Shown piece by piece: positions 4,319 through 60,702 of a stretch of 64,000 bases of DNA. A model generated the notes under the pieces. The model searched no databases. It was given only the letters and a program-made list of their open reading frames with translations, and had not been told where the DNA came from. How positions within the stretch are numbered: the stretch's first letter is position 1; every line of letters begins with the position of its first letter. The stretch spans positions 558,001 to 622,000 of the forward strand of contig NZ_RJWA01000002.1 in NCBI RefSeq assembly GCF_003762835.1, given 5' to 3'. Source of the DNA: Micromonospora sp. HM5-17 (GTDB taxonomy: Bacteria > Actinomycetota > Actinomycetes > Mycobacteriales > Micromonosporaceae). A program made the translations under genes and the position numbers.

Positions 4319-4562
4319 GGGCAGCCCGAGGGAATCAGCGGGCGATTGTTGCTGCCAACGCCGATGCGCGCCAACCCTACCGGTCTGTCCGCTCTCGCAC
4401 TACCCCGCCCGACGTGCCGAAATATGTATACCTCGATTTGTGCCGGTCGTCCTGGGTGGGATTGGGTGGGTGAGATCACTGGCGGGGTCGAAGGACCCGT
4501 TCGCACACCTGTGCGGTAACTTCTGGCTCTGGTGGTACCGCCCGGACAGGAGAAGCTCAGGC

Positions 4563-5081: not shown

Positions 5082-5120
5082 CCGACGCCGGACGGCCGAG
5101 GTGGGCGCCGCCACCCGAGG

Positions 5121-5177
5121 CCTCCCCGGAACCCGCGGCGGGGGGTGGGTGCTCCCCACGCCCCCGCCGTTCCGAGG
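5121..5177. terminator. bidirectional hairpin between convergent genes
   Basis: Perfect 9-bp arms CGGCGGGGG (5136-5144) and CCCCCGCCG (5161-5169) with further complementary bases outside them. It lies between the ends of the unknown protein gene and the MFS gene and can serve both strands. Confidence 0.65.
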
Positions 5178-5179
5178 GT

Positions 5180-44620: not shown

Positions 44621-44637
44621 TCGGACCTACCAATGTG

Positions 44638-44648
44638 CATATTGTATT
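44638..44648. promoter_or_regulatory. CATACnGTATG-type operator before fdsG
   Basis: CATATTGTATT, inside the longer imperfect palindrome GTGCATATTGTATTCAC (44635-44651). One of four similar sites in this part of the window; it overlaps a possible -10 region, so the protein bound there would repress. Confidence 0.65.
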
Positions 44649-44704
44649 CACGCCGCCGTATCGTGGAGCCGATCGGTCGATCTGCGAGCGGAGGGTGGAA
44701 CACC

Positions 44705-45232
44705 GTGGAGAGTCCGGGCGCCGCGACGAGAGCGGATCGGGTACGCGCGCTGGTCGCGGCACATCGGGGTGACCGGGGTGCCCTGCTGCCGATCCTGCAC
44801 CGGATCCAGGAGGAGTTCGGCTACATCGACGCCGACGACGTACCGGTGCTGGCGGCCGAGCTCAACATCTCCCGGGCCGACGTGCACGGCGTCGTGACCT
44901 TCTACACCGACTTCCGGTCCGAACCCGCCGGCCGGACCGTCGTCCGGCTCTGCCGCGCCGAGGCGTGCCAGGCGGTCGGCGCGGAGCGGCTCATCGCGTA
45001 CGCCGAACAGTCCCTCGGTGTCGCACTCGGACAGACCACACCGGACGGTGCGGTCACCCTGGAGCAGGTCTTCTGCCTCGGCAACTGCGCCCTCGGCCCC
45101 TCGGGCCAGGTCGACGGGCAGCTGCACGGACGGCTCACCCCGGCCCGTCTCGACGCCCTGCTGGCCGCGTCGCGAGCGGCGGCGCCGGCCGCTTACGAGG
45201 TCACGACCAGCGGAAAGACGGTGAACTCATGA
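44705..45232 (+). CDS. fdsG: NAD-dependent formate dehydrogenase gamma subunit
   Basis: A 175-residue NuoE/FdsG-like subunit with one [2Fe-2S] cluster. The ligands are C83, C88, C124 and C128 (LCRAEAC and FCLGNC). It passes electrons between the FMN subunit and the large subunit. The frame is open 24 codons upstream to an ATG inside the operator; GTG at 44705 with GGAGGG about ten bases upstream is preferred. The four fds genes overlap each other or follow within one base, so they form one operon. Confidence 0.95.
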   Translation: MESPGAATRADRVRALVAAHRGDRGALLPILHRIQEEFGYIDADDVPVLAAELNISRADVHGVVTFYTDFRSEPAGRTVVRLCRAEACQAVGAERLIAYAEQSLGVALGQTTPDGAVTLEQVFCLGNCALGPSGQVDGQLHGRLTPARLDALLAASRAAAPAAYEVTTSGKTVNS

Positions 45233-46821
45233 CGACGCCGGTCACAGTCTACGTACCCCGGGACTCCGCCGCGCTCTCGGTCGGCGCCGACCTGGTCGCC
45301 GCCGAGCTCGAGCGGGTCGCCGCCCAGGCGGGGAGGTCGGTGCGGGTGGTCCGCAACGGATCCCGCGGCATGCTCTGGCTGGAACCGCTGGTCGAGGTGG
45401 TCACCGAGCGGGGCCGGATCGGGTACGGGCCGGTGGCGCCGGAGCGGGTCGGCGAGCTGGTCGCCGCCGGGCTGTTCGACGGCGCCGACCACGAACTCTG
45501 CCAGGGCGTCGTCGAGGAGCTGCCGTGGCTGCGCAACCAGACCCGGCTCTGCTTCGCCCGGGTCGGGGTGATCGACCCGCTCTCGCCGGAGGACTACGTC
45601 GCGCACGGCGGGCTCGCCGGGCTGCGCGCCGCACTCGCCACGTCCCCGGCCGAGGTGGTCGCCGAGGTCACCGAGTCCGGGCTGCGCGGCCGGGGCGGCG
45701 CGGGCTTCCCGGCCGGGATCAAGTGGAAGACCGTCGCCGACACCCCCGACACGCTGAAGTTCGTCTGCTGCAACGCCGACGAGGGCGACAGTGGCACGTT
45801 CGCCGACCGGATGCTGATGGAGGGTGACCCGTTCACCCTCATCGAGGGGATGACCATCGCCGCGTACGCGGTCGGCGCGAGCGAGGGCTACGTCTACATC
45901 CGCTCCGAGTACCCGGACGCGGTGCGCACCATGCGACGGGCCATCGCCATCGCCCGTGAGCAGGGCTGGCTGGGCGACGACATCCTCGGCTCCGGGCTCC
46001 GCTTCGACCTGCACGTCCGGGTCGGGGCCGGTGCGTACATCTGCGGCGAGGAGACCGCGATGTTGGAGAGCCTGGAGGGCAAGCGCGGCATGGTCCGGGC
46101 CAAGCCCCCGATCCCGGCGATCAGCGGGCTGTTCGGCAAGCCGACCGTGGTGAACAACGTGTTGACCCTGGCCTCGGTCCCGGCGATCCTCGCCGACGGC
46201 GCGGCGGCGTACCAGGCGCTCGGTGTGGCGCGGTCGCGCGGCACCCAGGTCTTCCAACTCGCCGGCAACGTCGCCCGGGGCGGCGTCGTCGAGACCGCGT
46301 TCGGGATGACGCTGGGCGAGCTGGTTCACACGTACGGGGGCGGCACGCGCTCCGGCCGGCCCGTCCGCGCGGTCCAGGTCGGCGGCCCGCTCGGGGCGTA
46401 CCTGCCCGCGGACCGCCTGGACCTGCCGCTGGAGTACGAGGCGTTCGCCGCGGCCGGCGCGATGCTCGGGCACGGCGGCGTCGTCGTCTTCGACGACACC
46501 GTCGACATGGCGGCGATGGCGCGATTCGCCATGGAGTTCTGTGCCGAGGAGTCCTGCGGCAAGTGCACCCCGTGCCGGGTCGGCGCGGTCCGCGGTGTCG
46601 AGACGATCGACAAGATCGTCGCCGGCCAGGACCCGGACGGCAACCTCGCCCTGCTGAACGACCTCTGCGAGCTGATGACCGAGGGGTCGCTCTGCGCGAT
46701 GGGCGGGCTTACCCCGATGCCCGTCCGGAGCGCGCTGCTGCACTTCCCGGACGACTTCACCGCCCGCACCGAGAGGCGCGCGGAAGAATCTGCTGGCCGT
46801 TTTGAGGAGGCCAAGTCATGA
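45229..46821 (+). CDS. fdsB: NAD-dependent formate dehydrogenase beta subunit (FMN, NADH site)
   Basis: A 530-residue NuoF/FdsB-like subunit: N-terminal thioredoxin-like part, the NAD/FMN-binding GRGGAGFPAGIKW near residue 153, then ADEGDSGTFADR, and the C-terminal [4Fe-4S] site ESCGKCTPCRVG near 441. It reduces NAD+ with electrons from formate. The ATG overlaps fdsG by 4 bp and fdsA by 4 bp. Length matches FdsB of Cupriavidus. Confidence 0.96.
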   Translation: MTTPVTVYVPRDSAALSVGADLVAAELERVAAQAGRSVRVVRNGSRGMLWLEPLVEVVTERGRIGYGPVAPERVGELVAAGLFDGADHELCQGVVEELPWLRNQTRLCFARVGVIDPLSPEDYVAHGGLAGLRAALATSPAEVVAEVTESGLRGRGGAGFPAGIKWKTVADTPDTLKFVCCNADEGDSGTFADRMLMEGDPFTLIEGMTIAAYAVGASEGYVYIRSEYPDAVRTMRRAIAIAREQGWLGDDILGSGLRFDLHVRVGAGAYICGEETAMLESLEGKRGMVRAKPPIPAISGLFGKPTVVNNVLTLASVPAILADGAAAYQALGVARSRGTQVFQLAGNVARGGVVETAFGMTLGELVHTYGGGTRSGRPVRAVQVGGPLGAYLPADRLDLPLEYEAFAAAGAMLGHGGVVVFDDTVDMAAMARFAMEFCAEESCGKCTPCRVGAVRGVETIDKIVAGQDPDGNLALLNDLCELMTEGSLCAMGGLTPMPVRSALLHFPDDFTARTERRAEESAGRFEEAKS

Positions 46822-49631
46822 GCCTGCTGAAGGAACCCGACCTCGGCACCCCGGCCAAGGCCGGCCTGGCGACGGTGACGATCGAGGTGGACGGCCTGCC
46901 GGTGACCGTACCGGAGGGCACCTCGGTGATGCGTGCGGCGGCGCTGAGCGGAATCGAGATCCCCAAGCTCTGCGCCACCGACAGCCTGGAGGCGTTCGGC
47001 TCCTGCCGGCTCTGCCTCGTCGAGATCGAGGGGCGGCGTGGCACCCCGGCCTCCTGCACCACGCCGGTCGCCGAGGGCATGAAGGTGCGGACGCAGTCGC
47101 CGAAGCTGGCCAAGCTCCGGCAGGGCGTGATGGAGCTGTACATCTCCGACCACCCGCTGGACTGCCTCACCTGCTCGGCCAACGGCGACTGCGAGTTGCA
47201 GGACATGGCCGGCGTGGTCGGGCTGCGCCAGGTGCGCTACGGCTACTCCGGCGCCAACCACCTCGCCGAGCCCACCGACACCAGCAACCCGTACTTCCAG
47301 TTCGAGGCGTCGAAGTGCATCGCCTGCTCCCGCTGTGTCCGGGCGTGCGGTGAGATCCAGGGGACCTTCGCGCTGACCATCGAGGGGCGCGGCTTCAACT
47401 CCAAGGTCTCCGCCGGCGGCACCGACTTCATGTCCTCCGAGTGCGTCTCCTGCGGGGCCTGCGTGCAGGCCTGCCCGACCGCCACGCTCCAGGAGAAGTC
47501 GGTGGTCCAGCTCGGCATGCCGACCCGCAGCGTCATCACCACCTGTGCCTACTGCGGGGTCGGGTGCTCGTTCAAGGCCGAGCTGCGCGGAACCGAGCTG
47601 GTCCGCATGGTGCCGTACAAGGACGGCGGCGCCAACGAGGGACACTCCTGTGTCAAGGGCCGCTTCGCCTTCGGCTACGCCACCCACCCCGACCGGGTGC
47701 TGACCCCGATGATCCGGGAGAGCATCACCGACGAGTGGCGGCAGGTGGACTGGGAGACCGCGATCACCTACACCGCCAGGAGGCTGCGGGAGATCCAGGC
47801 CCGGTACGGCGTCGGCGCGATCGGTGGCATCACCTCCTCGCGGACCACGAACGAGGAGGTGTACGTCGTCCAGAAGATGATCCGGGCGGCGTTCGGCAAC
47901 AACAACGTGGACACCTGCGCCCGGGTCTGCCACTCGCCGACCGGCTACGGCCTCAAGCAGACCTTCGGCACCTCGGCCGGCACCCAGGACTTCCGCTCGG
48001 TGGCGAAGGCCGACGTGATCATGGTGATCGGTGCCAACCCGACCGACGGACACCCGGTCTTCGCCTCCCGGATGAAGCGCCGGATCCGCGAGGGGGCCAA
48101 GCTGATCGTCATCGACCCGCGCCGGATCGACCTGGTCCGGTCGCCGCACATCGAGGCGACCCACCACCTCCAGCTCGCTCCCGGCACCAACGTCGCGGTG
48201 ATCAACGCGATGGCGCACGTCGTCCTCACCGAGGGGCTGGTCGCCCGGGACTTCGTGGCCGAGCGCTGCGAGGGCTTCGAGGAGTGGGCGGAGTTCATCG
48301 CCCGTCCGGAGAACAGCCCGGAGGCGGTGGAGGAGCTGACCGGAGTGCCGGCCGAGGAGCTGCGGGCCGCGGCCCGGCTCTACGCCACCGGCGGCAATGC
48401 CGCGATCTACTACGGCCTCGGGGTGACCGAGCACAGCCAGGGCTCCACCATGGTGATGGGGATGGCGAACCTCGCCATGGCAACCGGCAACATCGGCCGG
48501 GAGGGGGTCGGGGTCAACCCGCTGCGCGGGCAGAACAACGTCCAGGGCTCCTGCGACATGGGTTCCTTCCCCCACGAGCTGCCCGGCTACCGGCACATCT
48601 CGGACGACGTCGTGCGCGGGACCTTCGAGGAGATGTGGGGGCGGGAGATCCAGTCCGAGCCCGGGCTGCGGATCCCGAACATGTTCGACGCGGCGCTCGA
48701 GGGAAGCTTCCGGGCGCTCTACGTGCAGGGCGAGGACATCGCGCAGTCCGACCCGAACACCAGCCACGTCACCGCCGCGTTGCGGGCGATGGAGCTGGTC
48801 GTGGTGCAGGATCTCTTCCTCAACGAGACCGCCAGGTTCGCGCACGTCTTCCTGCCCGGCACCTCGTTCCTGGAGAAGGACGGCACCTTCACCAACGCCG
48901 AACGGCGGATCAACCGGGTCCGGCCGGTGATGCCGCCGAGGACCGGCAAGCACGAGTGGCAGATCGCCTGCGAGATCGCCGAGGCGATGGGCTACCCGAT
49001 GCGGTACGCGCACCCGAGCGAGATCATGGACGAGATCGCCGCCCTCACCCCGACGTTCGCCGGGGTCTCCTTCGAGAAGCTGGACAAGCTCGGCAGTGTG
49101 CAGTGGCCGTGCAACGCCGCAGCCCCGGAGGGGACGCCGATCATGCACGTGGACGGCTTCGTCCGGGGCAAGGGGAAGTTCGTCCTGACACCGTTCGTCC
49201 CGACCCGGGAGCGGAGCACCCGGAAGTTCCCGCTGATCCTCACCACCGGCCGGATCCTCACCCAGTACAACGTCGGTGCGCAGACCCGGCGGACCGCGAA
49301 CGTCGCGTGGCACCCGGAGGACGTACTGGAGATCCACCCACACGACGCGGAGGTCCGGGGCATCAGCGACGGCGACGAGGTCGTGCTGTCCAGCCGGGTC
49401 GGCCAGACCTCGCTGCGGGCCGTCCTCTCCGACCGGATGCCGGTCGGGGTCGTCTACACCACGTTCCACCACCCGGTGACCGGGGCGAACGTGGTGACCA
49501 CCGAGAACTCCGACTGGGCGACCAACTGTCCGGAGTACAAGGTGACGGCGGTCCAGGTCGGGCTGAAGAACCCGCCCGGGCGACAGGCGGCGACCCGGGC
49601 GGAGGAGCTGCTTCCGGCGATGGCGGACTGA
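46818..49631 (+). CDS. fdsA: NAD-dependent formate dehydrogenase alpha subunit (molybdenum, catalytic)
   Basis: A 937-residue catalytic subunit. In order: an N-terminal [2Fe-2S] ferredoxin domain (KLCATDSLEAFGSCRLC), the His-Cys [4Fe-4S] site (ISDHPLDCLTC), two [4Fe-4S] ferredoxin motifs (CIACSRCVRAC and CVSCGACVQAC), and the molybdopterin domain with its own [4Fe-4S] (CAYCGVGC). The molybdenum ligand is Cys371 (ARVCHSP), not selenocysteine. It oxidises formate to CO2. ATG with GAGGAGG upstream overlaps fdsB. FdhD and MoeA encoded further right are needed for its cofactor. Confidence 0.97.
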   Translation: MSLLKEPDLGTPAKAGLATVTIEVDGLPVTVPEGTSVMRAAALSGIEIPKLCATDSLEAFGSCRLCLVEIEGRRGTPASCTTPVAEGMKVRTQSPKLAKLRQGVMELYISDHPLDCLTCSANGDCELQDMAGVVGLRQVRYGYSGANHLAEPTDTSNPYFQFEASKCIACSRCVRACGEIQGTFALTIEGRGFNSKVSAGGTDFMSSECVSCGACVQACPTATLQEKSVVQLGMPTRSVITTCAYCGVGCSFKAELRGTELVRMVPYKDGGANEGHSCVKGRFAFGYATHPDRVLTPMIRESITDEWRQVDWETAITYTARRLREIQARYGVGAIGGITSSRTTNEEVYVVQKMIRAAFGNNNVDTCARVCHSPTGYGLKQTFGTSAGTQDFRSVAKADVIMVIGANPTDGHPVFASRMKRRIREGAKLIVIDPRRIDLVRSPHIEATHHLQLAPGTNVAVINAMAHVVLTEGLVARDFVAERCEGFEEWAEFIARPENSPEAVEELTGVPAEELRAAARLYATGGNAAIYYGLGVTEHSQGSTMVMGMANLAMATGNIGREGVGVNPLRGQNNVQGSCDMGSFPHELPGYRHISDDVVRGTFEEMWGREIQSEPGLRIPNMFDAALEGSFRALYVQGEDIAQSDPNTSHVTAALRAMELVVVQDLFLNETARFAHVFLPGTSFLEKDGTFTNAERRINRVRPVMPPRTGKHEWQIACEIAEAMGYPMRYAHPSEIMDEIAALTPTFAGVSFEKLDKLGSVQWPCNAAAPEGTPIMHVDGFVRGKGKFVLTPFVPTRERSTRKFPLILTTGRILTQYNVGAQTRRTANVAWHPEDVLEIHPHDAEVRGISDGDEVVLSSRVGQTSLRAVLSDRMPVGVVYTTFHHPVTGANVVTTENSDWATNCPEYKVTAVQVGLKNPPGRQAATRAEELLPAMAD

Positions 49632-49632
49632 G

Positions 49633-49896
49633 ATGGGGGCGGAGCTGCGGATGGAGCCGCGTACCGAGACGCGGACGGAGTCGCATGGCGGGATCTCCCC
49701 GCAGATCAGGATGGCGAACGAGATCGCCGTCCAGTTCCACCACCAGCCACCGGAGGAGGCGGCGGCGGCGATCGCCGCGCACATCCGGGCGTTCTGGGAG
49801 CCGCGGATGCGGGCCGAGCTGTTGCGGCGGGCCGAGGCCGAGCCGCAGGCGCTCGATCCGCTCGCCCTGGCGGCCGCCCGGCTGCTCCGGGGCTGA
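49633..49896 (+). CDS. fdsD: NAD-dependent formate dehydrogenase delta subunit
   Basis: An 87-residue FdsD-type protein: ISPQIRMANEIAVQFHH and the AHIRAFWEPRMRAELL segment match the family. It is required for stable holoenzyme in relatives. The ATG follows the fdsA stop by one base. The first 18 residues before the conserved part are Glu/Arg/Thr-rich, so a later ATG at 49651 is possible. A strong hairpin follows. Confidence 0.88.
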   Translation: MGAELRMEPRTETRTESHGGISPQIRMANEIAVQFHHQPPEEAAAAIAAHIRAFWEPRMRAELLRRAEAEPQALDPLALAAARLLRG

Positions 49897-49908
49897 CGCT
49901 CCTCCCGA

Positions 49909-49946
49909 ACGGTCGCGCCGGGCACCGCCGAGCCCGGCGCGACCGT
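49909..49946 (+). terminator. strong hairpin ending the fds operon
   Basis: Perfect 15-bp arms (ACGGTCGCGCCGGGC and its complement) with an 8-base loop, 13 bp after the fdsD stop. No T-run. Confidence 0.85.
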
Positions 49947-50023
49947 ATGTATCCCACCCGACCGGACGCGCGGTCGTCCTCATGTCTCTCGTACGCCGGC
50001 GCCGCGATGCCTTGACCTCGGTA

Positions 50024-50034
50024 CATACTGCATA
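50024..50034. promoter_or_regulatory. CATACnGTATG-type operator before hyi
   Basis: CATACTGCATA, 42 bp before the hydroxypyruvate isomerase start. A TTGACC hexamer (50012-50017) is positioned as a -35, so the operator falls between -35 and -10, as expected for a repressor site. Confidence 0.65.
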
Positions 50035-50075
50035 CAGAATATCGTCGTCGCTCAGCGAGCCGCTCGGGAGGACCC

Positions 50076-50897
50076 GTGCCGACACACCACCTCCGCTTCG
50101 ACGTGAACTGTTCGATCCTCTTCACCGAACTGCCCCTGCTGGAGCGGCCGGCGGCGGCAAAGGCGGCCGGATTCGACGGGGTCGAGTTCTGGTGGCCGTT
50201 CGCGGAGCCGGTGCCGGCCGCGGCCGAGGTGGACGCGTTCGTCGCTGCGATCCGCGACGCCGGCGTCCAGCTGGTCGGGCTCAACTTCTTCGCCGGGGAC
50301 ATGCCCGGCGGCGATCGCGGGCTGGTCTCCTGGCCGGGTCGTTCGGCCGAGTTCCGGGAGAATGTCGCCGTGGTCGCGGCGATCGGTGCGGCCACCGGGT
50401 GCCGCTCCTTCAACGCCCTCTACGGCAACCGGCTGCCGGACGTGGACCCGACCGAGCAGGACGAGGTGGCGGTGGAGAACCTGACCGCCGCGGCCGCCAC
50501 GGTGGCCCGGATCGGCGGCACGGTGCTGGTCGAGGCGGTGAGCGGGCCACAGCCGTACCCGCTGCGGACCGCCGCCGACGTGGTCGCGGTGCTCGACGTC
50601 CTGCGGACGGAGCGCGGGGTGGAGAACGTCGCGTTCCTCGCCGACCTCTACCACCTGACCGTCAACGGCGACGACCTCGCCACGGTGGTCGACCACGCCG
50701 ACCAGATCGGGCACGTCCAGATCGCCGACGCCCCCGGCCGGCACGAGCCGGGGACCGGCGGCATCGACCTCGACGGCCACCTCGCCCGGCTGGAGACGGC
50801 CGGCTACCGCGGCTGGGTCGGCCTGGAGTACGTCCCGAGCGGACCGACCGAGGAGAGCTTCGCCTGGCTGCCCCGAGAGCGGCGACGGGCCGACTGA
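50076..50897 (+). CDS. hyi: hydroxypyruvate isomerase
   Basis: A 273-residue TIM-barrel enzyme of the hydroxypyruvate isomerase family. The N-terminal FDVNCSILFTELPLLERPAAA and GFDGVEFWWPF are typical; likely metal-binding Glu residues are in VLVEAVSG and VGLEYVPSG. It interconverts hydroxypyruvate and tartronate semialdehyde, the step next to glyoxylate carboligase. GTG with GGGAGG 4 bases upstream. It starts a three-gene operon with glxR and glxK. Confidence 0.93.
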   Translation: MPTHHLRFDVNCSILFTELPLLERPAAAKAAGFDGVEFWWPFAEPVPAAAEVDAFVAAIRDAGVQLVGLNFFAGDMPGGDRGLVSWPGRSAEFRENVAVVAAIGAATGCRSFNALYGNRLPDVDPTEQDEVAVENLTAAAATVARIGGTVLVEAVSGPQPYPLRTAADVVAVLDVLRTERGVENVAFLADLYHLTVNGDDLATVVDHADQIGHVQIADAPGRHEPGTGGIDLDGHLARLETAGYRGWVGLEYVPSGPTEESFAWLPRERRRAD

Positions 50898-50975
50898 ACC
50901 GGTGCGGGACGTGCCGGACCGGCTCGACCGTGCCCGGCCGCCCGCCGCCGATCCGACCAGCAAAGGAGATCGCAG

Positions 50976-51860
50976 ATGACCACCGTCGGTTTCATCGGCC
51001 TCGGCATCATGGGCGCCCCGATGGCCACCAACCTGATCAAGGCCGGTTACGAGGTCGTCGGGTACGACCACGACCCCGCCCGCAACGAGATCCTGGCACA
51101 GGCCGGCGGGCACGTCGCCGGCGGCGTCGCCGAGCTGGTCCGGCGATCCGAGACCGTGATCACCATGGTCCGGGACTCGGCGGACGTCGAGGCGGTCGCC
51201 CTCGGCGAGGACGGAATCCTGGCCCACTCCCGGCCCGGCCAGCTCTACATCGACATGAGCAGCATCTCGCCGCAGACCGCCCGCCGGGTCGCCGAGGCCG
51301 CCACGGCGTACCAGGTCCGGGTGCTGGACGCCCCGGTCAGCGGCGGTGAGGCCGGGGCGATCGAGGGAAGCCTCTCCATCATGGTCGGTGGCGAGGCCGA
51401 CGACGTCGCGGCGGCCCGGCCGATCCTCGACGTGCTCGGCGCCACCGTCGTCCACGTCGGTCCACACGGCGCGGGCCAGACGGTGAAGGCGGCGAACCAG
51501 CTCATCGTCGCCGGCACCATCGAGCTCGTCGCCGAGGCGATCGTCTTCCTCGAGGCGTACGGCGTCGACACCGAGGCGGCGGTGAAGGTCCTCGCCGGCG
51601 GGCTGGCCGGCAACCGGATTCTGGAGCGGAAGGCCGCGGGAATGCTGGCCCGGCAGTTCCAGCCCGGGTTCCGGATCGACCTGCACCACAAGGACATGGG
51701 GATCGTCACCGCGGCGGCGCGCGAGGCCGGAGTGGTCATCCCGCTCGGCGCGGCGGTCGCGCAGCTCATCGCGGCGCTCAGGGCGCAGGGCGACGGCGGC
51801 CTCGACCACACCGCGCTGCTCAAGCTCGTCGAACAGCTCTCGGGCCGGGCCCGGGCCTGA
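50976..51860 (+). CDS. glxR: 2-hydroxy-3-oxopropionate (tartronate semialdehyde) reductase
   Basis: A 294-residue beta-hydroxyacid dehydrogenase. The Rossmann glycine motif is GLGIMGAPMATNL, the substrate-binding segment DAPVSGGEAGA, and the catalytic Lys is in GQTVKAANQLI (near residue 171). It reduces tartronate semialdehyde to D-glycerate with NAD(P)H. ATG with AAAGGAG eight bases upstream. The family cannot by sequence alone be separated from 3-hydroxyisobutyrate dehydrogenase; the context settles the call. Confidence 0.93.
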   Translation: MTTVGFIGLGIMGAPMATNLIKAGYEVVGYDHDPARNEILAQAGGHVAGGVAELVRRSETVITMVRDSADVEAVALGEDGILAHSRPGQLYIDMSSISPQTARRVAEAATAYQVRVLDAPVSGGEAGAIEGSLSIMVGGEADDVAAARPILDVLGATVVHVGPHGAGQTVKAANQLIVAGTIELVAEAIVFLEAYGVDTEAAVKVLAGGLAGNRILERKAAGMLARQFQPGFRIDLHHKDMGIVTAAAREAGVVIPLGAAVAQLIAALRAQGDGGLDHTALLKLVEQLSGRARA

Positions 51861-51867
51861 CCTCGGG

Positions 51868-53115
51868 ATGTCCGCCGAGGTCGCGGCGCCGGGCGGGGGG
51901 CGGGGCCACGTGCTGCTCGCCCCGGACAAGTTCAAGGGCTCGCTGACCGCCGTCGAGGTCGTCCGGCATCTCGCCGCCGGCCTGCGTCGGGCCTGCCCAC
52001 CCGTCGAGGTACGTGCCTTCCCGGTCGCCGACGGTGGCGAGGGCACCCTCGACGCCGCCCTCTCGGCGGGCTTCACCCGGGTACCGGTCCGGGCCACCGG
52101 GCCGACCGGGGCGCCGGTGCAGACCGCCTTCGCGTACTCGTCCGGAGTGGCGGTCGTCGAGCTGGCCGACGCGTGTGGCCAGCGTCGGCTCCCGGGCGGG
52201 GTGGCCGATCCGCTCGGCGCCAGCAGCTACGGCGCCGGCGAGGTGATCCGGGCGGCGCTCGGGTACGGCTGCCGGGAGATCGTGCTCGGGCTGGGCGGCA
52301 GTGCCAGCACCGACGGCGGCACGGGACTGCTCCGCGCCCTCGGGGTACGGCTGCTCGACGACCGGGGCGCCGAGCTGCCGCCGGGCGGCGCCGCGCTCTG
52401 CCGACTGGACCGGATCGACGTCTCCGGGCTGCATCCGGCGGTCCGGCGTACCCGGTTCGTCCTCGCCGGCGACGTGGACAATCCGCTGCTCGGCCCGGCC
52501 GGAGCGGCGGCGGTCTACGGCCCGCAGAAGGGGGCGACCGAGGCCGACGTCGTGGTGCTGGAGGCGGGGCTGACCCGGTGGGCCGAGGTCGTCGCCGCCG
52601 CGTGCGGGACGGGGGCCGTGGCCCCGGCACCCGCCGGGAGTGACGACCGCCAAGCCGCGGCCGGCGGTCTCGGGCTCGCCGGGGCGCCGGGGGCGGGCGC
52701 GGCCGGCGGGGTGGGGTTCGCGGCGCTCGCCTTTCTCGGTGCGGTGTTCCGGCCCGGCATCGCGCTCCTGCTCGACCTGCTCGGCTTCCCGGCGCTGCTG
52801 GCCGGTGCCGGGCTGGTGATCACGGGGGAGGGGTCGCTGGACGCGCAGAGCCTGCGCGGGAAGGCGCCGGTCGGGGTGGCGTCGGCCGCGGCCGCGCACG
52901 GCGTGCCGACGGTGGCGGTGGCGGGCCAGGTCGCGGTCGGGCCGGACGACCTGCGGACCGTCGGGATCCACCGTGCGTACCCGCTGACCGACCTGGAGCC
53001 GGACCCGGCCGTGTGTGTCGCGCAGGCGCCGCGCCTGCTGGAACGGTTGGCCGGGGTGGTGGCCCGCGACTGGCTGGAGCCCTCGGGTCGTCCGCACCGC
53101 TCGCCGGCCCGGTAG
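51868..53115 (+). CDS. glxK: glycerate kinase
   Basis: A 415-residue type I glycerate kinase. Conserved parts are APDKFKGSLTAVEV, VADGGEGTLDA, LGGSASTDGGTGLL, GDVDNPLLGPAGAA and GEGSLDAQSLRGK. It phosphorylates D-glycerate, delivering glyoxylate-derived carbon to 2- or 3-phosphoglycerate. An internal Gly/Ala-rich insert (about residues 255-290) is longer than usual. The ATG follows glxR by 7 bp with only a weak ribosome site, so coupling is likely. It converges on moeA with a 7-bp gap. Confidence 0.94.
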   Translation: MSAEVAAPGGGRGHVLLAPDKFKGSLTAVEVVRHLAAGLRRACPPVEVRAFPVADGGEGTLDAALSAGFTRVPVRATGPTGAPVQTAFAYSSGVAVVELADACGQRRLPGGVADPLGASSYGAGEVIRAALGYGCREIVLGLGGSASTDGGTGLLRALGVRLLDDRGAELPPGGAALCRLDRIDVSGLHPAVRRTRFVLAGDVDNPLLGPAGAAAVYGPQKGATEADVVVLEAGLTRWAEVVAAACGTGAVAPAPAGSDDRQAAAGGLGLAGAPGAGAAGGVGFAALAFLGAVFRPGIALLLDLLGFPALLAGAGLVITGEGSLDAQSLRGKAPVGVASAAAAHGVPTVAVAGQVAVGPDDLRTVGIHRAYPLTDLEPDPAVCVAQAPRLLERLAGVVARDWLEPSGRPHRSPAR

Positions 53116-53122
53116 CCAGGCG

Positions 53123-54292
53123 TCACCCGGTCGGCAGCGGGAGCAGCTCGACCTCGCCGCGGCCATCCCAGGCCGGCGGCACGACGGCCAGGGCGTTCGC
53201 CCCGGCGGCGCCCCAGAGCGAGCCGGGACGGTCGTGGTTCAGCGGCCGGGCGGCGCTGCCGGTGTGGAGCACGGGCAGCAGCCGGGTGTCGTGGGGGTGG
53301 GGGGTGACCGGCCCGGTGAGGCGGGCGGTTTGGACCGGTGCCTCGGCCCGGCCGGCGAGCCCGCCGAGCAACGGGTCCAGCAGGGTCAGCGTGGCGACCA
53401 GGGCGGCGTACGGGTTGCCCGGCAGGCCGACCACGAAGCGGCCGTCCGGCAGGGCGGCGAGGAGCTGCGGGTGCCCCGGACGGCAGGCGACGCCCCGGAC
53501 CGGTACCTCGGCGGCCAGGCGCTCCAGCGCGCCGCGCAGGTGGTCGGCGGCGCCCGCCGAGGTCGCTCCGCAGACCACCAGCACCTCGACGTCGGTGCGG
53601 CGCAGCGTGGCGAGCAGCGCCTCCCGGTCGTCGGCGATCCGGGCCTGCCAGGTCAGGGTGGCACCGGCGGCGTGGAGCAGCCCCGGAAGCATCGGGCCGA
53701 TGGCGTCCCGGACCTGGCCCGGCGCGGGCAGACCGCTGGTCCGCAGTTCGGCGCCGGTGACCACGACGCCGACCCGGGGTCGACGGTGCACGGTGAGCGT
53801 GTCGTGTCCGAGGCTGGCGGCGAGGCCGAGCAGCGCGGGACTGACGACGGTGCCGGCGGGGAGCACCTCGCGGCCGGCGGGACAGTCCTCGCCACGGCGG
53901 CGAATGTGTCGGCCGGGCTCGATCTCGCCGGTCACGGTCTGGCCGTGCCGGATGGCCCGTTCGTACGGCAGCACGGCGTCGGCACCGGTCGGGACGACGG
54001 CCCCGGTGGCGATCTCGACGGCGTACCCGGGAGGCAGCGGCGCGGGTGGGCGCGGGTCACCGGCGAGGACGCGGCCGGCGAGGTGCCACGGTCCGGTCCC
54101 GGCGACCGCGTACCCGTCCATCGCGGCGGCGTCGTAGGCGGGGAGCGGGGAGAGCGCCACGAGGGGACGGGTCAGGGCCGCGCCGAGCGCCTCCGCCAGC
54201 GGGGCCTCGACCGGATCGAGGGGCCGCGCCACCTCGCGGGCGATCCGTCGGGCCTGTGCCCAGCCGGTGGAGTTCAGGGTTCCGAGTCTCAT
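53123..54292 (-). CDS. moeA: molybdopterin molybdenumtransferase
   Basis: A 389-residue MoeA. Conserved parts are AMDGYAV, ATGAVVPTGADAVLPYE, GVVVTGAEL and GLPGNPYAAL. It inserts molybdate into adenylated molybdopterin. ATG at 54292 with AGGAG 5 bases upstream; an upstream ATG in the frame is not supported. Its presence inside this cluster makes sense for supplying the formate dehydrogenase. It is divergent from the carrier gene and shares the palindromic operator region with it. Confidence 0.95.
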   Translation of the reverse strand: MRLGTLNSTGWAQARRIAREVARPLDPVEAPLAEALGAALTRPLVALSPLPAYDAAAMDGYAVAGTGPWHLAGRVLAGDPRPPAPLPPGYAVEIATGAVVPTGADAVLPYERAIRHGQTVTGEIEPGRHIRRRGEDCPAGREVLPAGTVVSPALLGLAASLGHDTLTVHRRPRVGVVVTGAELRTSGLPAPGQVRDAIGPMLPGLLHAAGATLTWQARIADDREALLATLRRTDVEVLVVCGATSAGAADHLRGALERLAAEVPVRGVACRPGHPQLLAALPDGRFVVGLPGNPYAALVATLTLLDPLLGGLAGRAEAPVQTARLTGPVTPHPHDTRLLPVLHTGSAARPLNHDRPGSLWGAAGANALAVVPPAWDGRGEVELLPLPTG

Positions 54293-54377
54293 TCGCACTC
54301 CTCGCCGCGTAGCCGGCCCGTCGGTGGGCCGCTCGTCTGGACAGTCGCACGTCCGTGATAGAGAATAGTGCACTCCA

Positions 54378-54388
54378 CATACTGTATA
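54378..54388. promoter_or_regulatory. CATACnGTATG-type operator between moeA and the carrier
   Basis: CATACTGTATA, within a perfect 12-bp palindrome ACTGTATACAGT (54381-54392). It lies 23 bp before the carrier ATG and 86 bp from the moeA start, so it could control both. Confidence 0.7.
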
Positions 54389-54410
54389 CAGTGGCCAAGT
54401 CGGAGGCATC

Positions 54411-55784
54411 ATGGACTCCCGCACCGACACCGTCACGGTCCGCGAGATCAGCGACTTCTACGGCCGCCGCTACCGGATCGGCGAGAGCGACCGCGCCCTG
54501 CTGGGTCGCTCCCGGGCGTGGATGACCCGGCTGCCCTGGGCCGCGATGCTGGCGGTCAGCCTCTTCCAGTACGGCTTCGGTGCCGCCCTGCCCACCCTCA
54601 CCGGCGCGAACGGGTGGAGCCTGGGACAGGCGTTCGCCGTACTCGGCCTCTGGGTGGTCTGCCAGGCGGCCAGCTCGCCGCTCGGTGGCTGGCTCTACCA
54701 GCGGCTACGGGTCCGGCTCGCCGCGCCGATGCTGATCGGGGCGGCCTGCTGCCTGACCGCGCTGGTCACCCTGGCGCACAGCTCCGACCTGCGCACCGTC
54801 CTGCTCGGCTACTCGGTGCTGGGCGGCATCGGCACCGGGCTGGTCTACATGACCTGCGTCGCCACCGTCACCGAGTGGTTCCCGGAGCGGATCGCCGGCC
54901 GTGTCGCGATGGTGGGTGCCGCCTTCGGCTACGGCGCCATCCCGTTCGTGGTCTTCGCCGGCTACGCCCTCGACCCCGGCAACCGGACCGTCGTCCTGGA
55001 CGCCACCGCCGTGGTCGTCTTCCTGATCGTGGCGGGCTGTGGCCTGCTGATGCGCAAGCCGCCCCGGAACTGGTGGCCCGCGGAGATCGATCCGCGGCGC
55101 TGGGCCGTGGACCGCCGGCTCAACCGGAGCATTCCGCACAACCGGCCCGCCGTCCGGCCGTACCCGCCGCGCGCGGCGTGGCGCAGCGGGATGCTGCCGA
55201 TGATGTTCGTGGCCGTGGTCCTCACCGCCGCGATGGCGCTGTTCGACATCGCCTACCTGGCCGGCTCCGCCCACACCGGACGCCTGGCCGCGCCGACCCT
55301 GGTGGCGGCGATGGGCGTGCTGGCGGCGGCGAACGGGGTCGGGCGCGCGGTCACCAGCTCGCTCTCCGACCGCATCGGCCGGCGCGGGACACTGGGCCTC
55401 GCCCTGCTGGTCGGCGGGGTGGCCCAGTTCGGGCTGCTCGCCGCCGCGGCGAACGACAACCACCCGGCGGTCGCGGTCGGCTTCGCCGCGCTCGCCGGCG
55501 CCGGCACCGGGGCCGGCTACTCCCTGCTGGTCAGCCTGGTCCGGGACTGGTTCGGCGACGACGCGACCGTGCCGAACTACGGGATCGTCTACACGGGCAA
55601 GGCGGTCGGCGGCGTCCTCGGCATCGTCCTCGCCGGGTTGGTCGTGACCAGCCCCGACTCTGCCGTACCGTTCGTGGTGGCTGGCTGTCTCGGCCTGCTC
55701 GGCGCGGCCCTGACCCGGTGGATGCGCCAGCCCGGGCTCGCCATGATACGGCTGCCGTCGCCACTGGGGGTCGATCGCGTCTAG
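54411..55784 (+). CDS. MFS carrier of the oxalate/formate antiporter family
   Basis: A 457-residue MFS carrier of the OFA family with about twelve helices starting near residue 42. OFA features include the N-terminal cytoplasmic extension, [31 protein letters not shown], and [22 protein letters not shown], as well as [11 protein letters not shown] in the second half. It probably imports oxalate (in exchange for formate in the Oxalobacter homologue), but the substrate could be another small carboxylate. ATG with GGAGG four bases upstream. fdhD follows 76 bp later on the same strand. Confidence 0.85.
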
Positions 55785-55860
55785 CGTCGGAAGAGGACGG
55801 GCGGTGCCGGAACGCCGGCGCCCCGGAACAGGTCGGGCCGGAGAGGATCGGTGGTGGCGG

Positions 55861-56709
55861 ATGGGACGGGTGACGAGTCGGCGTCGGCTGGTCCGGATCG
55901 TCGACGGTGTGGTCAGCGAGCCGGTCGACACGCTGGCGGCCGAGGAACCGATGGAGATCCGGGTCAACGGCCGGTCTCTGGTGATCACGATGCGAACCCC
56001 GGGCGACGACTTCGACCTGGCGGCGGGGTTCCTGGTCAGTGAGGGAGTGGTCCGGGCCGCCGCGGACCTCGCCACCATCCGCTACTGCGCGGGCGCCACG
56101 GCGGACGGGGGCAACACCTACAACGTCGTCGACGTCGTGCTGGCCCGGGGCGTGGCGCCGCCGGACCCGTCGCTGGAACGAAACTTCTACACCACCTCGT
56201 CCTGTGGACTCTGCGGCAAGGCGAGCCTGGAGGCGGTGCGGACCGTCGCGCGGTGGTCGGTGCGGGAGGACCCGGTGCGGATCGACCCGGCCGTGCTCAG
56301 CACCCTGCCCGAGACGCTGCGCAACGCGCAGCGGGTCTTCGACCGTACCGGCGGGCTGCACGCCGCCGGGCTCTTCTCCGCCGACGGTCGGCTGCACTGC
56401 CTGCGCGAGGACGTTGGCCGGCACAACGCGGTGGACAAGGTGGTCGGTTGGGCGGTGCGCAACGGCCGGCTGCCGCTGCGCGGCAGCGTGCTGATGGTCA
56501 GCGGCCGGGCCTCGTTCGAGCTGGTCCAGAAGGCGGTGATGGCCGGGATCCCGGCCCTGGCCGCGGTCTCCGCGCCCTCCTCGCTCGCCGCCGAGCTGGC
56601 CGACGACGCCGGTCTCACCCTGGTCGGGTTCCTGCGCGGCTCGTCGATGAACATCTACGCCGGGGCGCACCGGATCGCGCGGCGGGAGGCTCCCCGGGCC
56701 GCCGTCTGA
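55861..56709 (+). CDS. fdhD: formate dehydrogenase accessory sulfurtransferase
   Basis: A 282-residue FdhD. The sulfur-carrying Cys motif is C115-G-L-C118 ([12 protein letters not shown]); other conserved parts are [29 protein letters not shown], and [15 protein letters not shown] near 190. It transfers sulfur to the molybdenum cofactor of formate dehydrogenase. The start is the ATG at 55861 (MGRVTSRRR), as in other actinobacterial FdhD proteins, although the frame extends to a GTG at 55804. It ends at a strong hairpin. Confidence 0.95.
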
Positions 56710-56730
56710 CCGTCGGCCCGTCGATCATGA

Positions 56731-56764
56731 CGTGGTCCCCCGGCTTCCGCGCCGGGGGACCACG
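56731..56764. terminator. strong bidirectional hairpin
   Basis: Perfect 14-bp arms, CGTGGTCCCCCGGC and its complement, with a 6-base loop, 21 bp after fdhD and before the convergent sucD. Confidence 0.85.
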
Positions 56765-56901
56765 CCGTGTCCACGGGAGCCGCCGGGCCCGCGGGTGGTC
56801 GGGGTCCGGGCGGAGGCGTGGGCCCCCGCCCGGACCGGCGCCGACCTCGGGTAGCCGGGTCCGGCCGCCGGATCGACTCCGGCGGACGTCGACCCGACCG
56901 G

Positions 56902-57777
56902 TCAGCGCGCGAGCAACGTCTCGCGCATCAACGCGGCGGTCTCGGAGGGCGTCCGCCCGACCCTGACCCCCACCGCCTCCAGGGCCTCCTGCTTGGCCAG
57001 CGCCGTGCCGGAGGAGCCGGAGATGATCGCCCCCGCGTGCCCCATGGTCTTGCCCGGGGGCGCGGTGAAGCCGGCGATGTAGCCGACCACCGGCTTGCGG
57101 ATGTGCTCCCGGATGTACGCCGCGGCCCGCTCCTCGGCGTCTCCACCGATCTCGCCGATCATGACGATGGCGTCGGTCTCCGGGTCGTCCTCGAACGCCT
57201 GGAGACAGTCGATGTGGGTGGTGCCGACGATCGGGTCGCCGCCGATCCCGACGCAGGTGGAGAAGCCGAAGTCACGCAGCTCGTACATGAGCTGGTACGT
57301 CAGCGTCCCGCTCTTGCTGACCAGCCCGATCCGGCCGCGCTTGGTGATGTCGGCCGGGATGATCCCGGCGTTGGACTGCCCCGGACTGATCAGGCCGGGA
57401 CAGTTGGGGCCGATGATCCGGGTCCGGTTGCCGGTCGCCCGGGCGTACGCCCAGAACGTCGCGGTGTCGTGCACCGGAATCCCCTCGGTCAGCACCACGA
57501 CCAGGCCCAGCCCGGCGTCGATCGCCTCGATCACCGCCGCCTTCGCGAACCGGGGCGGCACGAAGACCACCGACACGTCCGCGCCGGTGGCCCGGACCGC
57601 CTCGGCGCAGCTGTCGAAGACCGGGATCGCGTCGACGTGCTGGCCGCCCTTGCCGGGGGTGACCCCGGCGACGATGTTCGTGCCGGCGGCGACCATCCGT
57701 CGGGTGTGCTTCGTTCCCTCGGTGCCGGTGATGCCCTGCACCAGCACCCTGCTCTTCTCGGTGAGGAAGATTGCCAT
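56902..57777 (-). CDS. sucD: succinate-CoA ligase (ADP-forming) alpha subunit
   Basis: A 291-residue SucD with the CoA-binding N-terminus ([17 protein letters not shown]), [11 protein letters not shown] and the phosphohistidine loop [11 protein letters not shown] (H247). It converts succinyl-CoA to succinate with ATP or GTP formation, or the reverse. ATG at 57777 with GGGGG about ten bases upstream; a GTG at 57786 is the alternative. It follows sucC with a small gap. This pair stands inside the oxalate/formate cluster, so it may be a second, dedicated copy that also acts on other dicarboxylates; I cannot tell from the sequence. Confidence 0.94.
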
Positions 57778-57782
57778 GCCTG

Positions 57783-58961
57783 TCACGCCCCCTTGCCGGC
57801 GAGCTCGGCGGCGAGCCGCGCCGCGCCGTCCATCGTGTCCACGACCCGTACGCCGTCCAGCGCGGCGTCGGCGAGAATCCGTCGCCCCTGTGCGGCGTTG
57901 TTGCCGTCCAGCCGGACGACCAGTGGCTTGGTGATCGTCTCGCCCCGGACGGTGAGCAGCCCGACCGCGCGCACGATGCCGTCCGCGACGGCGTCGCAGG
58001 CGGTGATCCCGCCGAAGACGTTGACGAAGACGCTGCGGACGTCCGGGTCGCCGAGGATGATCTCCAACCCGTCCGCCATCACCTCGGCGGAGGCCCCGCC
58101 GCCGATGTCGAGGAAGTTGGCCGGGCGGACCCCGCCGAACTCCTCGCCCGCGTAGGCGACCACGTCGAGGGTGCTCATCACCAGTCCGGCGCCGTTGCCG
58201 ATCACCCCGACCTGGCCGTCGAGCTTGACGTAGTTGAGGTGCTTCTCCGCGGCGCGCGTCTCCAGCGGGTCGGCGGCGCCGACGTCGACGAACGCCGCGT
58301 GCTCGGGGTGCCGGAACCGGGCGTTGTCGTCCAGGGTCACCTTGCCGTCCAGTGCGCGTACGGATCCGTCGGCGAGTCGGGCCAGCGGGTTGATCTCGAC
58401 CAGGGTGGCGTCCTCGTTCCGGAACACGTCCCAGAGCCGGACCAGGATGCCGGCCACGTCGGCGCGTACCTCGTCGGGTAGTCCGGCGTCGGCGACCAGC
58501 CGGCCCGCGGTGGCGGCGTCGAGGCCCTGGGCCGGGTCCACGTGCAGCCGGGCCAGGGCCTCGGGGTTGTCGGCCGCGACCTGCTCGATGTCGACCCCGC
58601 CCTGCCGGGAGGCCATGGCGAGGAAGGCGCGCTCGGCGCGGTCGAGCAGCAGCGCGACGTAGTACTCGTCCACGATCTCGCTGGCCTCGGTGACCAGCAC
58701 CTTGTGGACGGTGTGGCCCTTGATGTCCATGCCGAGAATGGCGCGGGCCACCTCCCGGGCCTGTGCCGGTCCGTCGGCCAGCCGGACGCCGCCGGCCTTG
58801 CCCCGACCGCCGGTCTTGACCTGGGCCTTCACCACCACCCGCCCGCCGATCTCGGCGGCGGCGGCCTCGGCCTCCTCCGGGGTGCTGGCGACGCGGTTGC
58901 GGCTCACCGGCACGCCGTGTCTGGCGAACAGTTCCTGTGCCTGGTGCTCGAAGAGATCCAC
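57783..58961 (-). CDS. sucC: succinate-CoA ligase (ADP-forming) beta subunit
   Basis: A 392-residue SucC: ATP-grasp domain ([44 protein letters not shown]) and a C-terminal CoA-ligase domain with [13 protein letters not shown] and [12 protein letters not shown]. It provides the nucleotide site and shares the succinate/CoA chemistry with SucD. GTG with GGGAGG 4 bases upstream. The divergent region 58962-59472 separates it from the formyl-CoA transferase gene. Confidence 0.95.
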
Positions 58962-59472
58962 CGGGCCTCCCTTCTCGTCGAGCTGGAGTGGGGCTGCGCC
59001 CGGTCGGGGAACGCCGACCGGGACGGGATGTCGGACTCGGAGGTGGACGGAACCGCGCGGCGGATCCGCGACGGGAAACGGAGCGGGCGGGCTGCCCGGG
59101 ATTCCGGGGGAGCGGTGGGAACGGCTCGGACTCCCGGGAACGGTCGGGTCGGCCCGAGGAGCTGTCGGGTCGGGAAGGGGTCCGGTCCGCCGCAGGGCGC
59201 CCGGAGCGCGGCCCGGACCGGGCTGTCCGCGCCGTCCACGTCGTACCGGCGGGGTCCGGTCTGCCGGCCCACCGGGACTGACGCGGAAAACGTGGTGCTA
59301 CCCCCTAGACACCCCGCTGTTACATGAGCCACGATATTGCCTACCCCATACGGTATGCAATCCTCGGGTGGTGGTGAGGGACCGGGACGCCAGCCCCACC
59401 GCAACGGTCACGAACCGGGTCCTCGCCTCACCATCGGCAACGCATGGCGCGGCGCGCACAGGAGGTTGGCTC
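58962..59472. promoter_or_regulatory. divergent regulatory region between sucC and frc
   Basis: A 511-bp gene-free stretch. Open frames through it are GC-bias extensions of the frc frame. It holds a CATACnGTATG-type operator at 59347-59357, flanked by ATTGC (59336-59340) and GCAAT (59357-59361) in inverted order. The sucC-proximal 300 bases are GC-rich and show no motif I can name. Both divergent promoters are expected here. Confidence 0.6.
59347..59357. promoter_or_regulatory. CATACnGTATG-type operator before frc
   Basis: CATACGGTATG is the most symmetric of the four sites (a perfect 5-bp inverted repeat around one base). It lies about 116 bp before the formyl-CoA transferase start and is surrounded by ATTGC/GCAAT flanks. 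Confidence 0.7.
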
Positions 59473-60702
59473 ATGGGCAAGGCTCTGGAGGGCGTACGGG
59501 TCCTCGACATGACACACGTGCAGTCCGGTCCCTCGTCCACCCAGTTGCTGGCGTGGCTCGGCGCGGACGTCATCAAGCTGGAGGCGCCCGGACAGGGTGA
59601 CATCACCCGCAGCCAGCTTCGGGACATTCCCGACGTCGACAGCCTCTACTTCACCATGCTCAATGCCAACAAGCGGAGCATCACCCTGAACATGAAGCAC
59701 GAGCGGGGCAAGGAGATCTTCACCCGGCTCGTGTCCGAGGTGGACATCCTGGTGGAGAACTTCGGCCCCGGCGTAATCGAGCGGTTCGGATTCCCCTGGG
59801 AGCGGCTGCACGAGATCAACCCCCGGCTGATCTACGCCTCCATCAAGGGTTTCGGCCCCGGGCGATACGCCAACTTCAAGGCGTACGAGGTGATCGCCCA
59901 GGCCATGGGGGGCTCGATGAGCACCACCGGCTTCGAGGACGGCCCGCCGACCGCCACGGGCGCCCAGATCGGCGACTCCGGCACCGGCATCCACCTGGTG
60001 GCCGGCATCCTCGCCGCCCTCTACCAGCGCACCAAGACCGGACGCGGCCAGCGGGTCCAGGTGGCGATGCAGGACGCGGTGCTCAACCTGTGCCGGGTCA
60101 AGCTTCGTGACCAGCAGCGGCTGGCCCACGGCCCGCTCGGGGAGTACCCGAACGAGAGCTTCGGCGACACCGTGCCGCGCTCCGGCAACGCCTCCGGCGG
60201 CGGCCAGCCCGGCTGGGCGCTGCGGTGTGCGCCCGGCGGCCCCAACGACTACATCTACGTCATCATCCAGCCCGTCGGATGGAAGCCGATCTGTGAGCTG
60301 ATCGGCCGCCCCGAGCTGGCCGACGACCCCGCGTGGAACACCCCGCAGGCGCGGCTGAACAAGCTCGACAAGGCGTTCGCGCTGATCGAGGAGTGGACCG
60401 AGAAGCACACCAAGTGGGAGGTCATGGAGAAGCTCAACGCCCACAACATCCCGTGTGGGCCCGTCCTCTCCACCAAGGAGCTGATCGAGGACGAGACCCT
60501 CGCCGAGCTCGGGACGGTCGTCGAGGTCGACCACCCCACCCGCGGCCGGTACAAGACGGTGGGCAACCCGATCAAGCTCTCCGACTCGTACGTCGAGGTC
60601 GAGCGCGCGCCGCTGCTCGGCGAACACACCGCGCAGGTTCTCGCCGAGCTGGGCTACGACGAGCGGCAGGTCGACGAGCTGCGCGTCGCCGGCGCGATCT
60701 GA
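59473..60702 (+). CDS. frc: formyl-CoA:oxalate CoA-transferase
   Basis: A 409-residue class III CoA-transferase that closely follows the Oxalobacter formyl-CoA transferase (THVQSGP, NVDSLYF-like [38 protein letters not shown]). Asp168 (QIGDSGTG) takes the place of the catalytic Asp169 of the Oxalobacter enzyme. The glycine-rich loop is SGGGQPGW instead of GGGGQPGW. It transfers CoA from formyl-CoA (or another donor) to oxalate. The enzyme is about 19 residues shorter because a loop before the glycine-rich loop is missing. ATG with AGGAGG seven bases upstream. Confidence 0.9.

Follow-up and report, generated by a model that had tools for sequence, protein, structure and literature searches.

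Are the short palindromes that precede formate, glyoxylate and oxalate genes of Micromonospora sp. HM5-17 operators of a single regulon, and which protein reads them? Four such palindromes are located in the stretch of DNA analysed here, a window of 64 kb (C12:558001-622000) in a genome of 6.17 Mb assembled in 51 contigs; coordinates given without a contig are those of the window. Comparison with related genomes makes it very probable that the palindromes are operators of an oxalate-use regulon under a local repressor of the GntR/FCD type, encoded at C12:627285-628043 (69285-70043 on the window scale).

The pattern CATAYKGYATD has four matches in the window against 0.04 expected, a count reached in none of 100 shuffles, and, as the initial annotation had stated, these four are the only ones there. 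The candidate operators are given without strand. The frc operator (59347..59357) is, as claimed earlier, a perfect inverted repeat, CATACGGTATG; a third half-site, TTGCCTAC, is found just upstream of it (59337-59344), and the operator is also upstream of a divergent sucC-like gene. A second candidate (54378..54388) lies between moeA on the reverse strand and the gene for a major facilitator superfamily (MFS) carrier on the forward strand. The hyi operator (50024..50041) consists of two pseudo-palindromes, 50024-50034 and 50031-50041, which overlap and are offset by 7 bp: the site originally placed at 50024 is present, but the best register is 7 bp to the right, with the core at 50031-50041. 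The candidate operator of fdsG and the formate dehydrogenase operon (44638..44648) is the weakest of the four. All had been described as intergenic; the fdsG site is inside the longest open reading frame, which begins at 44633, but is upstream of the gene if translation starts at GTG 44705, as the alignment of relatives suggests.

Since the pattern was drawn from the window sites themselves, it was tested on sequence outside its derivation. The genome contains seven matches, six of them within approximately 29 kb, compared with two matches of the control pattern read backwards. Beyond the window, matches are found at C12:625128, C12:631829 and on C9; the last one (C9:17322) scores 0.6 bits in the matrix introduced below and was taken as chance. 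The exact site at 625128 is upstream of oxc (start 625282), and that at 631829 precedes aldehyde dehydrogenase, then gcl, then gntR, so that the hits forecast before oxc and gcl were both found. The accompanying forecast of a hit before a GntR-type gene held insofar as site 631829 heads the run containing gntR, while the site of gntR itself is weak. The exact palindrome CATACNGTATG is confined to three places of the genome, each within the cluster; allowing one mismatch adds 11 (two in the cluster and nine elsewhere), giving 14 in total versus nine for the control.

For scoring, 52 sites were taken from the 75 distinct ones of relatives to make a log-odds matrix of 19 bp, own sites being excluded; those left out were mostly near-copies, plus two doubtful sites, and L122 was dropped, as it brought gap columns. 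The scan covered 58 kb of the own genome (C12:600001-658000) and a 440-kb control from the same genome (20 stretches of 20 kb plus positions 1-40000 of the window). Scores of the window sites were 28.7 bits for frc, 25.7 for the carrier, 21.3 for hyi (50027-50045; the overlapping register 50024-50034 has 12.7) and 16.6 for fdsG. To the right of the window were the sites of the aldehyde dehydrogenase-gcl run (26.8) and oxc (25.4), a site at 633043, 41 bp before panE and outside the reach of the initial annotation (22.1), and a second oxc site at 625242, ending some 30 bp upstream of the start of oxc (20.2). In all, eight places in the 58 kb score at least 16.6 bits, the next best having 13.4, and no place in the control reaches 16 bits (best 14.4). 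An Infernal profile of the relatives' sites gave five whole-genome hits with E<=10, confined to frc, oxc and aldehyde dehydrogenase; as it recovers just the three strongest places, the log-odds matrix was used instead. Occurrence at random frequency over the genome, which had been named as grounds for discarding the motif, is contradicted by the clustered matches, the profile scan and the comparison of matrix scores with the control.

Conservation was analysed in loci around orthologues of the own GntR protein, the best 80 of 366 (59-87% identity), from Plantactinospora, Actinoplanes, Lentzea, Mycobacterium, Streptomyces and other genera, with genes recognised by means of 21 reference proteins. 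With no more than one mismatch allowed, these loci contain 118 sites, compared with an expectation of 3.0 derived from a single order-1 random copy per locus; none of the 118 is inside a recognised gene, and 113 are within 400 bp before one. At least one site is present in 58 of the 80 loci and in 46 of the 47 with frc of at least 70% identity in reach. In 28 of the 80, a GntR gene has a site no more than 300 bp upstream, in many cases one common to divergent panE, as autoregulation would give. Orthologous promoters were compared in seven relatives (the genomes behind L042-L048, seven of 12 searched): in their fds-hyi-carrier-frc stretch, 18 sites match with no more than one mismatch, and every one precedes fdsG, carrier/moeA or frc/sucC. 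The site is conserved in 5/5 relatives covered at fdsG, 7/7 at carrier/moeA and 6/6 covered at frc/sucC; flanks of the fdsG site diverge, while the site persists with a varying middle base. The hyi double site, at two mismatches, is found in three of the seven. Absence from orthologous loci, the other grounds for discarding the motif, is thus not what was found, sites being retained in both the loci and the promoters of relatives. The possibility that four A+T-rich promoter scraps were picked after the fact can draw on the two-mismatch palindrome, which is not rare in the window and shows no significant enrichment there (eight versus 5.19 expected; 14 of 100 shuffles reach eight). Other sequence, namely the relatives' loci, 200 genomes, profile scan, footprints and control matrix scan, refutes such a chance origin, and we give it practically no weight.

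Another test is the distribution of the motif among 200 genomes drawn from the order. The own GntR has matches at E<=1e-40 in 15 of them, 10 at 64-100% identity and five at 40-43%. The strict motif TTGCATACNGTATG, which in the own genome finds solely frc and therefore serves comparison between genomes and not target listing, is present in all 10 genomes with a GntR orthologue (at least 64%) and in one of the 190 others (Fisher test 4.9e-16, uncorrected for kinship); its reversed control pattern was found in none of the 200. The single exception is G100, where two sites precede a panE-like gene (read from translation) on a 3.2-kb contig of an 89% complete genome. Three genomes with an frc relative of 54-57% and no GntR orthologue lack the motif, a weak comparison, as only a distant frc is involved. 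The same distribution bears on the idea that these palindromes are recognised by a common sigma factor, as promoter elements and not as operators. On either strand TACNGTA is similar to TANNNT, and TACNGT fits a loose -10 rule; but presence in 10 of 10 genomes with this regulator versus one of 190 others, symmetry over 19 bp, location between divergent genes and varying placement relative to -35/-10-like boxes make this explanation highly improbable.

The regulator was expected beyond the right end of the window, and a GntR/FCD gene is indeed located 5.3 kb past it. The protein belongs to the family at both ends: the N-terminal GntR winged helix is recognised by PF00392 (72.9 bits, cut-off 27) and the C-terminal FCD domain by PF07729 (88.9 bits, cut-off 24.3). 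Its AlphaFold2 (AF2) model has a pLDDT (predicted local distance difference test) of 86.2 and a pTM (predicted template modelling score) of 0.75; the best Foldseek matches are FCD-type GntR regulators, the nearest being 7u5q, PmiR and Atu1419/VanR, with 24-28% identity. All 23 named NCBIfam regulator families listed were below cut-off, with the best scores for PhnR (107.9 versus 271.5), NanR (90 versus 260) and GlcC (38.8 versus 301). Four residues, N162, H166, H208 and H230, do not vary among the 31 sequences compared, the three histidines aligning with those of PmiR and N162 with an aspartate; by its sequence, the protein has the residues of the VanR-type FCD metal site, Asp/Asn plus three histidines.

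The extended operator consensus is ATTGCATAC-N-GTATGCAAT, symmetric over 19 bp. A third half-site, GTATG at +8 from the centre (a shift of 7 bp), matches in at least four of five positions in 12.3% of flanks versus 0.9% of background, counted over 114 flanks of 57 non-redundant sites, part of this signal being the extended consensus itself. Other offsets deviate as well (z of 9.3 for CATAC at +6, 5.5 at +7 and 4.3 at +13; lowest -4.7), so the z values are inflated; as the strongest of these deviations, at +6, overlaps the palindrome extension, the third half-site is a suggestion and not proof. A weaker second register 7 bp away, of 3.7 to 12.7 bits, is found at frc, oxc, aldehyde dehydrogenase, carrier, hyi and gntR. 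According to a survey of FadR-subfamily operators (Suvorova et al., 2015; PMC4494728), GntR operators can carry an additional, weaker half-site at 7-12 nt from the centre, and the consensus of the FadR subfamily is GT...AC, mostly 3 nt apart, and 2 nt apart in several groups, with exceptions named. The half-site form had been likened to GntR operators; the palindrome with its suggested extra half-site fits this description, but the order of the core, AC-N-GT, is atypical.

Positions of the operators relative to promoter-like sequences were also considered. The only promoter-like pair of the hyi region, TTGACC-17-CAGAAT (50012..50040, forward strand; one found versus a mean of 0.0 in shuffles), has its spacer and -10 filled by the operator, and TTGAC and CAGAAT are retained in all four aligned sequences, the own one and those of the three relatives with the hyi site. 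Upstream of the carrier, 11 bases separate TGGACA-17-GAGAAT (54338..54366, forward strand; one versus a mean of 0.1) from the operator behind it, which would thus occupy about +5 to +15. Such locations, in or just after a sigma-70-like pair, speak for repression. In relatives' fdsG promoters, TTGCAT-18-TATGGT is readable by eye, with the operator over the -35 and spacer, although this is not a scan result.

Several findings weigh against the explanation by a GntR/FCD repressor. First, scanning upstream of frc, fdsG and oxc yielded no sigma-70-like pair, and the promoter sequences suggest repression at only two of five scanned promoters. This leaves some room for a regulon in which GntR is an activator, or has a dual role depending on site position. 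GlcC, of the FCD kind, is an activator. Besides the lack of sigma-70-like pairs, the operators end 116 bp before the ATG start codon of frc and 144 bp before the start of oxc, and a long conserved block extends upstream of, and includes, the site at both genes. This block of approximately 60 bp, CTAGACAC ... TTACATG ... TATTGCCTACCCCATACGGTATGCAAT (59302..59361, forward strand; oxc counterpart at L009:6070-6140), is common to the frc and oxc promoters and was aligned in 13 sequences, seven from frc, five from oxc and one from the enzyme replacing oxc in L046, and its 5' part is variable in some; it exceeds the needs of an operator and is perhaps the site of a second regulator or an unusual promoter. 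Against activation, the hyi site in the -35/-10 spacer and the carrier site 11 bases past the -10 are in polymerase-blocking places, these boxes being consensus matches and not mapped promoters. We consider activation or dual control unlikely.

Second, frc of at least 80% identity is present in exactly the same 10 genomes as the GntR orthologue, so that co-occurrence cannot separate GntR from another regulator travelling with the cluster. The palindrome could then be read by a protein such as the LysR-type regulator encoded at C12:633367-634494, a LysR-like gene near panE in the own genome (read from translation); coincidence of frc and GntR does not single GntR out. But a homologue of this LysR is present in only 10 of the 58 site-bearing loci of relatives, and the site stands just before a GntR gene in the 28 of 80 loci mentioned above, where GntR occurs in every locus by construction, the loci having been fetched by it. 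Reading by another regulator of the cluster is, in our estimate, quite improbable.

Third, some results concern the sites as such. The core order ATAC-N-GTAT, that is AC-N-GT, differs from the usual GT...AC of the FadR subfamily (PMC4494728). No site with at most one mismatch was found in 22 of the 80 loci, mostly from Streptomyces; 16 of these have a weaker related site of at least 12 bits and six have none. Such weaker sites number 29 in the 421 kb of site-less loci versus two in the 440-kb control, and mostly precede panE, fdhD, sucC or formate dehydrogenase genes. The hyi site CATACTGCATACAGAAT is identical in three of the seven relatives and absent in four. The matrix was trained on sites first chosen by the palindrome of the initial annotation, some of them orthologous to the own oxc site, and is thus separate from the own sites but not wholly independent. 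The own gntR has a weak site of 9.2 bits. Finally, one of the nine one-mismatch places outside the cluster, C13:1460, which is also outside the 440-kb control, reached 17.4 bits. It was rejected as a target and ascribed to chance, since no pathway gene was recognised in the 3 kb around it; open reading frames there differ in codon use, and one is resolvase-like (read from translation).

In the proposed mechanism of GntR/FCD repression, a GntR dimer, or a pair of dimers, would bind sites of the extended type and, when the substrate is absent, would block RNA polymerase. The regulated steps would probably be oxalate import by the MFS carrier, activation by frc and decarboxylation by oxc, and probably also formate oxidation by fds with moeA and glyoxylate assimilation by panE, gcl, hyi, glxR and glycerate kinase. 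Release would be caused by a small acid or coenzyme A (CoA) ester of the pathway, perhaps oxalate itself at the FCD metal site; oxalate as the ligand is a guess from chemistry. We infer GntR as the binder, repression, the effector and the pathway roles of genes below family cut-offs. A fuller scheme can be offered only tentatively: an oxalate-sensing GntR/FCD repressor whose ligand, a strong metal chelator, would close the FCD metal site, with two dimers on a reversed-core AC-N-GT operator with the third half-site 7 bp on, jointly controlling oxalate dissimilation and assimilation across several actinomycete families.

The nearest solved folds are those of Atu1419 of Agrobacterium fabrum, from the VanR group, PmiR of Pseudomonas aeruginosa and 7u5q of Brucella melitensis, which share the winged helix and FCD domain with the own GntR but differ from it in sequence (24-28% identity) and act in other pathways. 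Atu1419 is described as a VanR-group repressor that binds zinc by Asn137 and three histidines and whose palindromic sites, several in number, overlap promoters (PMC7797058). The invariant N-H-H-H set of the own GntR, known here from sequence alone, resembles this Asn-His3 site (PMC7797058). In the same source the Atu1419 operator is ATGTATACAT (GT-AT-AC), as opposed to ATAC-N-GTAT here. Operators of the FadR subfamily are likewise A/T-rich palindromes with a weaker extra half-site (PMC4494728), whereas the core here is AC-N1-GT. This core lacks the FadR-type boxes (GT...AC, 2-3 nt apart), which are typical of the subfamily and not defining for it: the frc/oxc operator block contains no GT-N2-4-AC, while the carrier site does contain GTATAC. 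HypR of Streptomyces coelicolor (PMC6608401) is also a GntR-like repressor from an actinobacterium and represses its own gene together with a set of catabolic genes, but it controls the hydroxyproline pathway, with the motif CTNTGC(A/C)ATGTCAC. The string 'oxal' is absent from the main text of the survey PMC4494728. No oxalate regulator of this kind, and no described regulator of oxalate breakdown in actinomycetes, was present among the matches listed in open-access literature, RegPrecise and most subscription papers being outside the search; in the literature searched, the regulon is apparently undescribed, its regulator being of the familiar GntR/FCD, VanR-like kind. Near-identical stretches ACAACATTC[C/G]GTATGGCAAGCCGC were observed beside other GntR genes in L130 and L131 (C34:503382 and C34:516811; 14.3 bits each); another regulator of the GntR kind may use them as its operator.

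The single metabolic theme attributed to the sites is supported, as they precede genes with probable roles in oxalate use, of which frc (59473..60702, forward strand; formyl-CoA transferase, TIGR03253, 643.5 bits, cut-off 504), oxc (TIGR03254, 983 bits, cut-off 739) and gcl (NF008431, 924 bits, cut-off 791) score above family cut-offs. Exact sites before both frc and oxc place these two genes under the same type of operator, as in a regulon of oxalate catabolism. The other window genes considered here are on the forward strand except moeA. fdsG (44705..45232, start GTG 44705 inferred from the alignment) encodes the gamma subunit of NAD-dependent formate dehydrogenase (NF004638, 207.7 bits, cut-off 198), and fdsA (46818..49631) the molybdopterin formate dehydrogenase subunit (PF00384, PF01568 and others). 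They are followed by a hydroxypyruvate isomerase-like gene, hyi (50076..50897; TIGR03234, 268 bits, below the cut-off of 353), a tartronate semialdehyde reductase-like gene, glxR (50976..51860; PF03446 and PF14833, with the substrate suggested by context), and a glycerate kinase gene (51868..53115; PF02595, 406 bits). Further genes are moeA (53123..54292, reverse strand, start inferred; Glp/MoeA models, all below cut-offs), the MFS carrier, oxalate/formate antiporter-like (54411..55784; below the cut-offs of both TIGR00890, with 121 bits versus 375, and SfMCT, with 131 versus 320), and fdhD (55804..56709; PF02634).

Several neighbouring genes were noted. The aldehyde dehydrogenase before gcl (L009:11142-12700, reverse strand) fits NCBIfam models poorly, at best with 127.8 bits versus a cut-off of 615. 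Between CoA-ligase and oxc (L009:1987-3732 and 4201-5352; C12:620987-624352) are genes for an Nramp-type transporter (NF037982, 461 bits versus a cut-off of 50) and a TerC-like protein, the latter named from reading the sequence; both genes accompany the oxalate cluster in many loci of relatives. Many relatives' loci have a different thiamine-dependent enzyme, approximately 30% identical to gcl or oxc, in the oxc slot beside frc, behind the same operator. For the two such enzymes scanned (L046:11039-12775 and L060:17717-19426, both on the reverse strand), the best models, PRK05858 and 2-hydroxyacyl-CoA lyase, are both below cut-off, and the oxc model gives 227-246 bits versus 739. Perhaps the enzyme is an oxalyl-CoA decarboxylase or lyase that has so far escaped recognition. 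Nine of the 80 loci (L056, L064, L067, L094, L098, L107, L109, L114 and L115) have a longer double operator, TTGCATACAG-N6-8-ATACTGTATG, which precedes the gene of the thiamine-dependent enzyme and in most of these loci is flanked by sucC at its opposite end.

Oxalate breakdown by soil bacteria moves plant carbon into soil carbonate. For this process, our analysis brings together a candidate regulator, its operator and a gene list, a combination for which a single protein and a small number of DNA fragments would suffice as test material. The operator may also serve as a marker for uncharacterised genes of the pathway, such as that of the thiamine-dependent enzyme found in place of oxc.

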